Shown: piece after piece, positions 5,387 through 58,877 of the stretch
Layout of the letters: the number at the start of each line of letters is the position of its first letter
Numbering within the stretch: the first letter of the stretch is position 1
Assembly: GCF_014303395.1 (NCBI RefSeq)
Contig: NZ_CP060298.1
Location: 4,421,001-4,485,000 of the forward strand
DNA: 64,000 nt
Direction of reading: 5' to 3'
From: Nakamurella sp. PAMC28650
Lineage (GTDB): Bacteria > Actinomycetota > Actinomycetes > Mycobacteriales > Nakamurellaceae
Notes under the pieces: generated by a model
What the model was told of the DNA's origin: nothing
Seen by the model: the letters and a program-made list of their open reading frames with translations, nothing else
Database searches by the model: none
Program-made: the position numbers and the translations under genes

Positions 5387-5523
5387 GCATGGATCAATCC
5401 CCACTTCGTGGAGGGCTCGGCCAGGCATGGACGAACCTGACGACTCCTGTCACTCCAGTCCCAAATGCTCGATGTTGATCCTTGCCTGCGATGTTGATCC
5501 ATGCCTGCGATGTTGATCCATGC
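5387..5523 (-). repeat. Intergenic structured repeat, copy A (variant arms)
   Basis: Lies between the glnA terminator and the metH stop. Read on the minus strand it shows three units starting GATCAACATCG, then the core TTTGGGACTGGAGTGAC, then GTTCGTCCATGCC, and ends in ATTGATCCATGC. The outer arms GCATGGATCAA (5387-5397 on plus) and TTGATCCATGC (5513-5523) are perfect inverted repeats of 11 bp. On the plus strand the right part is a 19-bp tandem unit (GATGTTGATCCATGCCTGC) repeated three times at 5471-5527. It aligns with copies B, C and D through the core, but with different, self-complementary arms. Confidence 0.75.
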
Positions 5524-9358: not shown

Positions 9359-9496
9359 CCCGCGCTGGTCAACATCTCCGGCACGCTCCCTGGCGCGCTG
9401 ATCAACATCGTCGGCGCTCACGAACGTCGACGAATTGGGACGGAAGTGACGCAAATGGACCCGATGATGAGCGCTGTCGATGTTGATAAGCGCGGG
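9359..9496 (+). repeat. Intergenic structured repeat, copy B (metH upstream region)
   Basis: Fills much of the 380-bp gap between metH and the cysteine hydrolase gene. The outer arms CCCGCGCTGGTCAACATC (9359-9376) and GATGTTGATAAGCGCGGG (9479-9496) pair at 16 of 18 positions. A second internal GCGCTGATCAACATCG (9395-9410) is also present. The core ATTGGGACGGAAGTGACGC (9433-9451) matches copies A, C and D. An inner pair GCGCTCA / TGAGCGC flanks the core. The rest of the gap (9221-9358) shows no gene that I can support. Confidence 0.75.
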
Positions 9497-36305: not shown

Positions 36306-36408
36306 CCGCGCTGATCAACTTCGCCGGCGCTCATCAACTTGCACCCATTGGGACGGGTGGGACGCGAGTCAACGAGTTGATGAGCGCGGTCGATGTTGAT
36401 CAGCGCGG
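36306..36408 (+). repeat. Intergenic structured repeat, copy C
   Basis: Outer arms CCGCGCTGATCAAC (36306-36319) and GTTGATCAGCGCGG (36395-36408) are a perfect 14-bp inverted repeat. Inner arms GCGCTCATCAACT and AGTTGATGAGCGC pair perfectly over 13 bp around the core ATTGGGACGGGTGGGACGC. The remainder of the 36204-36305 gap holds GC-rich direct repeats (GGCCGCGCGGATC twice) and no gene. Confidence 0.8.
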
Positions 36409-36467
36409 GTGGGGCAGGGCGGAGCTGGCACAGGCGCACCGGGGCTCAGCGGTCGCCGTGACCGTCC

Positions 36468-36574
36468 CCCCGCGCTGATCAACTTCGCCGGCGCTGATCA
36501 ACTTGGATCGTTTGGGACGGGTGGGACGCGAGTCGACGAGTTCGTCAGCGCGGTCGATGTTGATAAGCGCGGGG
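36468..36574 (+). repeat. Intergenic structured repeat, copy D
   Basis: Second copy 60 bp after copy C in the same orientation. Outer arms CCCCGCGCTGATCAAC (36468-36483) and GTTGATAAGCGCGGGG (36559-36574) pair at all but one position. The core TTTGGGACGGGTGGGACGCG is nearly identical to copy C. The inner arms GCGCTGATCAAC and GTTCGTCAGCGC are slightly mismatched. Confidence 0.8.
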
Positions 36575-38737: not shown

Positions 38738-40666
38738 ATGTCGAACTCCGTGCAGATGCCGGCTCTCGGTGAGAGCGTCACCGAAGGCACTGTCACCCGC
38801 TGGCTGAAGCAGGTCGGTGACGAGGTCGCCGTCGACGAACCGTTGGTCGAGATCTCCACCGACAAGGTCGACACCGAGATTCCCTCGCCGTTCGCCGGGA
38901 TTCTCGAGAAGATCTCAGTCGCGGAGGACGAGACCGCCGAGATCGGCGCCGAACTGGCCGTGATCGGCGACGACAGTGGCGCGGCAGCGGAATCGGCCGC
39001 GGCGCCGGAACCCGAGCCGGCACCCGCTGCAGCACCGGCGGCGGCTCCCGAGCCGGCACCCGAGCCCGAAGCAGCACCCGCCGCGGTCGCTCCGGAACCG
39101 TCAGCGCCCTCCACCGAGGTCGAGACGCCCGCCGAGAAGCCTGTCGCGGAAGCGGCGGCACCGACCGCCGCCGGTACACCGATCCTGTTGCCCGCCATGG
39201 GTGAGTCGGTCACCGAGGGCACCGTCACCCGGTGGCTCAAGGCCGTGGGTGATGACGTCGCGGTGGACGAGCCCCTCGTCGAGATCTCCACCGACAAGGT
39301 CGACACCGAGGTCCCGTCCCCGGTGGCAGGCACCCTGCTGCAGATCAGCGTCGGCGAGGACGAGACGGTCGAGGTCGGTGCCCAGTTGGCCCTGATCGGC
39401 GCCAAGGGCGCCGCCCCATCAGCAACCGCCCCATCAGCAACCGCCCCATCACCAACCCCCCCGTCAGCCCCCGCCCCGTCAGCCACCGCCCCGGCCGCAG
39501 CGGCCCCGACCCCTGAGCCACCCACCACCGCGGTGGCAGATTCCGCGCCGGATCCGGCACCGGCCGAGCCGACCACCACTCCCGCCGCCGCCAAGGCCGC
39601 AGCTCCGGCGCCCGCTCCGATCACCACCTCCCCGGACGCCGGCGCTCCGGCCGCCAAGCCGGCCGCCCCCAGCTGGCAGCCGGCCCCGAAGGCCGAGACC
39701 ACGAGCTACGTCACTCCGGTCATCCGCAAGCTGGCCGCCGACCAGGGCGTGGATCTGTCGGCCCTGACCGGCACCGGTGTCGGTGGCCGCATCCGCCGTG
39801 AGGACGTGCTGGCCGCGGGCGAAGCGCTGAAGGCCGCCGCCGAGGCCGCAAAGGCGGCCGCCGCTGCCCCGGCCGCACCGACCCCAGCCCCAGCACCGGC
39901 TGCCCCGGCCACGAAGCCGGTGGCCGACGCCGCCGTCACCGCACTCATCGGCACCACCCAGAAGTTGCCGCGCATCCGGCAGTCGATCGCCAAGAACATG
40001 CTCTACGGCCTGCAGACCGCAGCCCAGCTGACCACCGTCATCGAGGTCGACGTGACCAGGGTGGCCAACGTCAGGGCCAGGGCGAAGTCCGGGTTCGAGG
40101 CACGTGAGGGCGTCAAGCTCTCGTTCCTGCCGTTCTTCGTCAAGGCCGCGGTGGAGGCGCTCAAGCTCTACCCGGTGGTCAACTCCTCGATCTCCGAGGA
40201 CCTGAAGGAGATCACCTACCATGGCTCCGTCAACCTCGGTATCGCGGTCGACACCCCCCGTGGGCTGATCGTCCCGGTGATCAAGGAGGCCGACGATCTG
40301 AACATCGGCGGCCTCGCCCGCAAGATCGCCGATCTGGCCGAACGCACCCGCAGCAACAAGATCGGTCCGGACGATCTGTCCGGCGGCACGTTCACGATCA
40401 CCAACACCGGGTCGGTCGGCGCCCTGTTCGACACCCCGATCTTCGTGCCGCCGCAGTCGGCGATCCTGGGTACCGGGGTCATCGTCAAGCGTCCGGTCGT
40501 GATGACGGACGCCGACGGCGGCGAGGTCATCGCGATCCGCTCGATGATGTACCTCGCGATGTCCTACGACCACCGCAACATCGACGGTGCTGACGCCTCC
40601 CGCTTCCTTGGTGCGGTCAAGAAGCGCATCGAGGCCGGCGAGTACGAAGGCGATCTCGGGCTCTAG
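38738..40666 (+). CDS. sucB: Dihydrolipoyl acyltransferase (E2) with two lipoyl domains
   Basis: Core acyltransferase of 2-oxoacid dehydrogenase complexes; in actinobacteria this E2 often serves the pyruvate complex and, with Kgd, the 2-oxoglutarate complex. The 642-residue product has two lipoyl domains with modified lysines at K43 and K187 ([10 protein letters not shown] in each), two Ala/Pro/Glu-rich linkers, a peripheral subunit-binding domain ([19 protein letters not shown]), and the catalytic domain ending in [17 protein letters not shown] with His612. The second linker is encoded by a 15-bp repeat. GAAAG upstream is a weak ribosome-binding site. It follows lpdA and precedes the TIGR01777 gene, as in mycobacteria. 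The symbol dlaT would also fit. Confidence 0.95.
39411..39480 (+). repeat. Slippage-prone tandem repeat and C tract inside sucB
   Basis: Units of CGCCCCATCAGCAAC (15 bp) repeat with decay, coding the linker run A-P-S-A-T. A homopolymer of seven C's lies at 39456-39462. The 15-bp units keep frame if their number changes, while the C tract would shift it. Confidence 0.7.
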
Positions 40667-58552: not shown

Positions 58553-58626
58553 TCGGGCTGACAGGATTTGAACCTGCGACATCCGCGTCCCAAACGCGGC
58601 GCGCTACCAAGCTGCGCTACAGCCCG
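58553..58626 (-). tRNA. tRNA-Pro (anticodon TGG)
   Basis: On the minus strand: acceptor CGGGCTG / CAGCCCG with discriminator A, D arm GCGCAGCTTGGTAGCGC, anticodon stem CCGCG / CGCGG with loop TTTGGGA (anticodon TGG), 5-base variable loop ATGTC, and T arm GCAGG-TTCAAAT-CCTGT (last pair G-T). 74 nt. CCA is not encoded. Confidence 0.95.
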
Positions 58627-58691
58627 TCGTCCTCGGATCGTAACGGACCTGACGTCACCGAGCTCACCGGCGTGATTGTGCAACCGGTCCG

Positions 58692-58761
58692 GACGAGCGT
58701 TGAACCTGCGACATCCGTGTTCACCGACGCGGCGCGCTACCAAGCTGCGCTGAGGCTCGTC
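58692..58761 (-). pseudogene. Damaged partial copy of tRNA-Pro
   Basis: Two blocks of the neighbouring tRNA-Pro recur in the same order and spacing: TTGAACCTGCGACATCCG (58700-58717) and a 25-bp block from 58727 to 58751 covering the D arm and half the anticodon stem. The anticodon loop has been altered, the 3' half of the T stem is missing, and the ends differ, although GACGAGC and GCTCGTC still pair as an acceptor-like stem. It cannot fold as a working tRNA. Confidence 0.8.
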
Positions 58762-58877
58762 GTGCCCGAATCGTCATGGACATGTCCGATCTGGCCGAAC
58801 AGCGCCACCGGGCGGACACCCGGAACAGCCTCGCGGTTGGGCTATCATTGCCCAGCACGGCAATCATGAAGTGCCCT

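Follow-up and report, generated by a model that had tools for sequence, protein, structure and literature searches.

Dispersed two-arm inverted-repeat elements of Nakamurella sp. PAMC28650, a probable REPIN-like population, and an AbiEi/nuclease-like gene as their candidate partner

To which family do two neighbouring structured repeats of a Nakamurella chromosome belong, and which gene goes with that family? The repeats lie in the window, the stretch of 64,000 nucleotides that was analysed as a whole (G000:C1:4421001-4485000; G000, the source Nakamurella genome, 5.63 Mb, one contig). They are listed with two further copies by window position and strand; CM, covariance model.

36306..36408, + strand: copy C, type I, full two-arm form, 103 positions; CM 111 bits, the best of the genome; among the 36 training rows of the CM
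36308..36319, + strand: outer left arm unit of C, GCGCTGATCAAC; from arm-pattern search and window self-comparison
36327..36338, + strand: inner left arm unit of C, GCGCTCATCAAC; starts 19 bp after the outer unit
36339..36375, + strand: core of C, 37 nt; alignment columns 34-70
36376..36387, - strand: inner right arm of C; reads GTTGATGAGCGC on the + strand
36395..36406, - strand: outer right arm of C; reads GTTGATCAGCGC on the + strand
36470..36572, + strand: copy D, type I, full two-arm form; CM 105.8 bits; training row
9393..9495, + strand: copy B, type I, in a divergent gap; CM 92.7 bits; training row
5413..5506, - strand: copy A, type II arms (GCATGGATCAAC, GCAAGGATCAAC); CM 39 bits; not a training row

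Copies C and D are real and lie in the same direction about 60 bp apart, as the preliminary description had it, and the bounds of C (36306-36408) were as given there; D was likewise found on the + strand, with computed bounds of 36470-36572 in place of 36468-36574. The arms and core said to be shared are present in both copies (core string GGGACGGGTGGGACGC at 36350 in C and 36514 in D), except for two right-arm details in D, where the outer arm is GTTGATAAGCGC and the inner arm GTTCGTCAGCGC. Within the window, C matches D at 90% identity over 114 nt (E 3e-39) and B at 79% identity over 107 nt (E 6e-17); A, which is adjoined by extra 19-bp arm units, is a more distant copy than B by window comparison and CM. 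All four copies lie within called gene gaps, in agreement with the earlier count of four. Two other direct repeats were seen in the window: one of 242 nt, 74% identical (38757-38998 / 39189-39430), inside ORF 38738-40666; and one of 58 nt, 83% identical (58594-58651 / 58727-58784), of which one copy overlaps the tRNA gene 58553-58626.

A genome-wide search for the arm pattern GCGCTBATCAAC gives 131 hits, vs 1 for the reversed control, and the CM gives at least 150 matches in G000 at E <=1 among the best 150 candidates scored. Once 19 opposite-strand duplicates were dropped, at least 131 places remained, a lower bound because the best 150 candidates were scored; the weakest of these has E 0.056, all others <=3.3e-5. 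Simple codon-based gene calls made in the analysis put 122 of the 131 places in gene gaps (70 tandem, 44 convergent, 8 divergent); for 8 others the core falls within a called ORF, and the last one sits at an edge. Elements are rare in divergent gaps (8, vs 44 in convergent ones); in the window, convergent and divergent junctions are equal in number (10 and 10). Orientation in tandem gaps shows little bias (40 opposite to the genes, 30 along them). For the preliminary description, more than about 20 intergenic hits would speak for a mobile or regulatory family; the family has far more, at least 131 CM places, mostly in gaps, with covarying arms and a fixed core.

Five near-identical type II copies (L176, L181, L183, L184, L186) have a common left flank, and in three of them a longer repeat is duplicated with the element. 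By eye, we take this longer repeat to be a degenerate HNH-type gene (HNH/13E12 label), and these copies look like hitch-hikers. No target duplication was recognised in the flanks read by eye, and in the alignments inspected, G001 intergenic DNA was too diverged for an empty-site comparison.

In each element, 19-bp units are arrayed symmetrically, in inverted orientation, on the two sides of a 37-nt core; the unit consists of a species-specific hexamer, ATCAACWTCG, and 3 nt, and each side of the core is flanked by two 12-nt arm units spaced 19 bp. The core consensus is roughly T-GGGAC-NNNN-GKGAC-RNRA-GTC; the outer consensus over 103 columns is CCGCGC...GCGCGG. The alignment comprises 36 copies with both outer arms, hand-picked from 67, from five genomes (22 from G000), and is gap-free over 103 columns with column i facing column 104-i, partly by construction, as the windows came from a gapless matrix; when gaps are permitted, 50 of the 131 G000 places still have a length of exactly 103. 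At many loci there is just one arm unit on one side. Head-to-tail expansions of arm units on one side were seen at genome positions 4411807-4411913 (six units; L196) and 2637385-2637453 (four units; L195).

Folded with short flanks, copy C far surpasses its dinucleotide shuffles (z -9.5 as RNA, -10.4 as DNA; 0/200 shuffles as good). In the 36-copy alignment, arm covariation scores 0.191, vs 0.100 (sd 0.009) shuffled and <=0.060 slid; two of five covariation measures are without clear excess over shuffles, namely changes on both sides (16 of 32 stem pairs, a value reached by 60/500 shuffles) and the number of pair types (reached by 149/500). Per copy in G000, covariation is weak for type I (55/2000 shuffles reach the value) and absent for type II (1907/2000), so it lies mostly between subfamilies, as a shared recogniser would give. 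In the 7-nt spacer of the alignment (columns 15-21), conservation is stronger for the sequence TCG than for pairing, as would suit a protein-binding unit. A base-paired GAC-RNRA-GTC tetraloop in the core was considered and rejected: 83% of cells are paired with zero changes on both sides, so that the sequence is conserved and the stem unproven. The structured RNA offered earlier as an alternative is weakly supported: no element matched Rfam at gathering score in the window (two tRNAs only), co-directional bias is small (40 vs 30), and G-T mispairs outnumber A-C ones by little (56 vs 40 among 50 full-length G000 copies).

Among 17 genomes of the genus, six are rich in elements (G000, G001, G002, G008, G013, G016; from at least 60 to at least 149 matches, both strands), three have 1-5 CM matches (G005, 1; G010, 5; G012, 2), and eight have none among the best 150 candidates. 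One of these eight, G015, nevertheless gives a model match (E 1e-7) next to a distant paralog of the partner gene described below (L331). Five of the eight matches in G005, G010, and G012 were inspected; one in G010 has the look of a decayed element and the others resemble other hairpins. Sequence matches outside the genus, in G024 and G028 (26 and 34 nt), were taken as chance.

Each element-rich genome has its own arm types, and G000 has two subfamilies. Hexamers were counted as NNNNNNATCAACWTC in the 131 G000 places with 40-nt flanks, so that neighbours may count twice: type II, GCGTGG 67, GCATGG 54; type I, GCGCTG 59, GCGCTT 21. Elsewhere the counts are: G001, GCGTGG 67, GCATGG 27 (44 loci fetched); G002, GCGCGG, 6 units (8 loci); G008, GCGCGG, 14 units (9 loci); G013, GCGATG 18, GCGAGG 12 (29 loci); G016, GCGCTT 30 (18 loci).

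Of 48 G001 elements, 20 have both flanking genes matching a G000 gap that holds an element, 17 of them in the same orientation as the G000 element, so that inheritance seems likely for many type II elements. The remainder comprise 1 with an empty G000 gap, 16 with one flank matched, and 11 unmatched; empty gaps are under-sampled since G000 loci were fetched around G000 elements, and the comparison bears on 21 of the 48. By these comparisons recent type II movement looks rare. Core identity at shared gaps does not rise above that of random pairs (26.1 vs 25.1, sd 2.7), and fast turnover or homogenisation is possible behind these unalike cores. In-situ conversion, by which a type II element at a shared gap would have become type I, is not supported: in four such pairs the cores are no closer than random.

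The preliminary description had likened the repeats to REP/BIME elements and proposed a search for a REP-associated TnpA/RAYT transposase. The likeness holds for dispersal, mostly intergenic position, fixed core, and covarying arms; it fails for the Y1/RAYT partner, as PF01797 gave 0 matches in G000 (E 0.001) and was positive in 5/14 control genomes. A RAYT was accordingly rejected as partner, with no Y1_Tnp in G000. DUF222/HNH proteins were rejected as well: DUF222 is present in 17/17 genomes of the genus regardless of elements, and 27 DUF222 loci are without a common flank string over 11 nt.

A different gene accompanies the elements. Partner copy 1, a gene of 362 aa (G000 2350029-2351117) with an ortholog in G001, is flanked by two elements of a conserved type II trio and matches AbiEi_4 (PF13338) at E 8.4e-6; this winged-helix family is matched in 11/14 members (best E 1e-8). 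A C-terminal motif, ESPxES/RxD/ExDGxxK, has residues invariant in 14 aligned members. Matches to DUF559 (18.2 bits, E 0.0022; Pfam cut-off 20.6) and MTES_1575 (14.1 bits; cut-off 38.2) are below threshold, and on sequence grounds the C-terminus appears to resemble these PD-(D/E)XK-like nucleases. Around five partner loci, where 10 neighbouring proteins were scanned, an AbiEii (DUF1814) toxin gene is absent.

Of the 17 genomes searched, none but the six element-rich ones has homologs at 46-73% identity (two in G000, 7 genes in total); in the other 11, with all 43 matches considered, the best homolog has 38% (G014; a shorter match in G009). Beside all seven partner genes there is an element 0 to 176 bp away, in some on both sides, and the stop codon lies inside an element in partner copy 1 and in the G002 gene. 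Judged by strict pattern, 4/7 genes have arms of their genome's own type beside them (copy 1, type II; copy 2, type I; G001; G016); looser matches are GCGCGGATCAAC in G002, GCGCGGATCATC in G008, and, by eye, GCGAGGATCTTC in G013. Partner copy 2 (G000 5234476-5235486) has a type I element 2 bp downstream; a type I element upstream is, by eye, split by an IS5-type insertion (L334:260-1430, genome ~5233268-5234440). At a locus common to G000, G001, and G013, the partner diverges faster than its neighbours (G000-G013 50% vs 86% and 72%). The association of element and partner is well supported; co-occurrence across the genus may come through shared descent.

Distant paralogs extend the pattern. 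Among 30 loci, element matches were found beside such paralogs in G015 (E 1e-7), G002 (5e-5; L336), and four others (0.02-0.08). A third G000 paralog (4906610) has its own hairpin, with 10 arm hits vs 0 in the control, three of them beside the gene; this hairpin family was also seen with 19-bp arm spacing at genome positions 1521760 and 1521779 (L395, L396). Seven paralogs at 26-40% identity were inspected, and five are bordered on both sides by another hairpin (by eye). In Phytoactinopolyspora limicola, a 65-bp palindrome lies each side of the gene (98% identical); in P. endophytica, a 64-bp palindrome (70%) flanks a gene whose frame looks interrupted; in Jiangella, a long inverted repeat lies downstream in 2/3 loci.

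In the class, the partner-family profile matches 262/394 genomes at E 1e-10 (best five candidates scored per genome). A string of >=16 nt, a limit chosen after viewing the first set, is common to the upstream and downstream 400 nt in 8/26 loci of that set vs 1/95 control pairs (29 profile-search loci; 3 dropped for short flank), and in 8/20 loci of a fresh set vs 2/110 control pairs. Together this makes 16/46 loci vs 3/205 control pairs, with 30/46 lacking such a repeat; some loci have a genome or a repeat in common, so that full independence does not hold, and a small number of gene calls seem mistaken. DUF222 loci, as control, gave 0/27 with a flank string of >=16 nt and none over 11 nt. Locus L361 (G220) carries the P. 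limicola hairpin at almost the same place on its contig, so that G220 is probably the P. limicola genome itself; the hairpin is dispersed in G220 (35 arm hits at <=2 mismatches vs 2 in the control, most paired 42-43 bp apart), and two more G220 paralogs have different common flank strings. At these loci, different repeat families border one and the same protein family.

Upstream of the partner genes (200 bp, <=1 mismatch) lies TTRTCCACA, which we take to be the high-GC DnaA-box consensus: 14/14 genus members, 5/5 named loci, and 22/29 class loci, in total 41/48 partner loci vs 17/458 G000 control genes (exact motif, 27/48 vs 0/458). The 48 loci are L319-L325, L329, L331, L334-L336, L346, L347, L351-L355, and L357-L385. 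The motif was found upstream in 15/20 fresh-set loci, in 5/27 DUF222 loci, and, in a second control, in 15/65 neighbours in class loci, which may include partner genes.

From these data C and D probably belong to a REPIN-like, non-autonomous population mobilised in trans by the AbiEi-nuclease; mobilisation by the partner, including arm binding, cutting, and copying, is what we infer. The winged helix would bind the arm units, by analogy with AbiEi-family proteins on promoter inverted repeats; the nuclease-like domain would cut or nick the hairpin or target; and replication or repair would copy the element into new gaps. Movement would be at a low rate, as for REPINs moved by RAYTs in the available portions of PMC8049555 and PMC3733652. 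Copies harming promoters or genes would be lost, leaving elements at gene 3' ends, and the TTRTCCACA boxes suggest that partner expression may be tied to replication. Arms and protein specificity would shift in step and so yield species-specific subfamilies, of which G000 has two; host effects (termination, DNA topology) may be secondary.

A smaller but appreciable likelihood is given to the partner being a DNA-binding regulator or genome-policing nuclease, AbiEi-like, with the elements as dispersed operators or recognition sites spread otherwise. Autoregulation of AbiEi proteins by binding inverted repeats, as described in part of PMC7319586, speaks for it, as do the tight element-gene linkage and the 20/48 G001 elements at gaps common with a G000 element; operators would be expected at promoters, yet divergent gaps hold 8/131 elements, and 48 to at least 131 copies per genome (G001, G000) with tandem unit expansions fit proliferation better. 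That the elements serve chiefly to terminate transcription in both directions or to stabilise mRNA 3' ends, and are kept by selection for this, with the nuclease-gene link secondary, we consider improbable: the strong copy C hairpin, the 3'-end location (44 convergent, 70 tandem, 8 divergent), the gaps common with G001, and the little orientation preference would suit such a role, but core and arms are conserved in sequence with species-specific arm hexamers, spacer columns 15-21 conserve sequence over pairing, presence in the genus is patchy, and the elements match the partner gene. Least probable are classical MITEs of a DDE-type insertion sequence, to which inverted terminal arms and multicopy dispersal would point; yet repeat families of several kinds lie beside one protein family, and the sole IS5-type insertion noticed close to an element splits that element (by eye).

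Beyond mobilisation of the Nakamurella elements by their partner, AbiEi-winged-helix nucleases might form a widespread actinobacterial class propagating hairpin families, each paralog with its own hairpin: REPtron-like, with a nuclease unrelated to the HUH transposase, DnaA-box-gated, and with AbiEi antitoxins as domesticated relatives. This wider reading is tentative, its chances close to evenly balanced. For REP-like repeats without RAYT, no mover is so far known to us; the nuclease-like gene, with one copy per arm type in G000, is a direct candidate. With an AbiEi/nuclease-like protein, hairpin repeats would gain a partner of a new kind, and a possible function would be at hand for the large unstudied group of AbiEi/DUF559-type proteins. 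Arm and partner pairs may serve as a natural series of protein-DNA specificity pairs, and if the enzyme were shown to copy hairpins, a new route of DNA mobility would follow.

Among known systems, Vsr-like (EDxHD) homing endonucleases, which reside in introns, are nucleases of the PD-(D/E)XK/Vsr kind driving the spread of DNA, and the partner is like them in that respect; none is known to us that has AbiEi domains or goes with populations of hairpins. Among the open-licence papers listed, nothing in titles or abstract openings joined AbiEi/DUF559 proteins to dispersed palindromes. With AbiE type IV toxin-antitoxin systems (S. agalactiae AbiEi, M. tuberculosis Rv2827c), the partner shares the N-terminal winged-helix family; proteins of that family bind 23-bp tandem inverted repeats in their own promoters and autoregulate [part of PMC7319586]. 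Unlike AbiE, the partner has a nuclease-like C-terminus, no AbiEii nearby, and candidate cognate repeats genome-wide. REPIN/RAYT systems, as far as the available text of PMC3733652 and PMC8049555 describes them, have species- or family-specific palindromes and a vertically kept partner flanked by repeats; short dispersed intergenic palindromes, inverted dimers, and a repeat-specific partner gene are common to both. Here too repeats lie beside the partner gene, in some cases on both sides, but it is AbiEi/nuclease-like, and the elements differ from GTAG REPs in the lack of a Y1/RAYT in G000, of a GTAG tag (neither GTAG nor CGTC stands at the hairpin foot in the 103-column consensus), and in their arms of 19-bp tandem units. 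CGTC-tagged and untagged REP-like families are likewise dispersed palindromes without a dedicated RAYT; for these, the consulted portion of PMC3733652 names no known partner enzyme, and one is proposed here.
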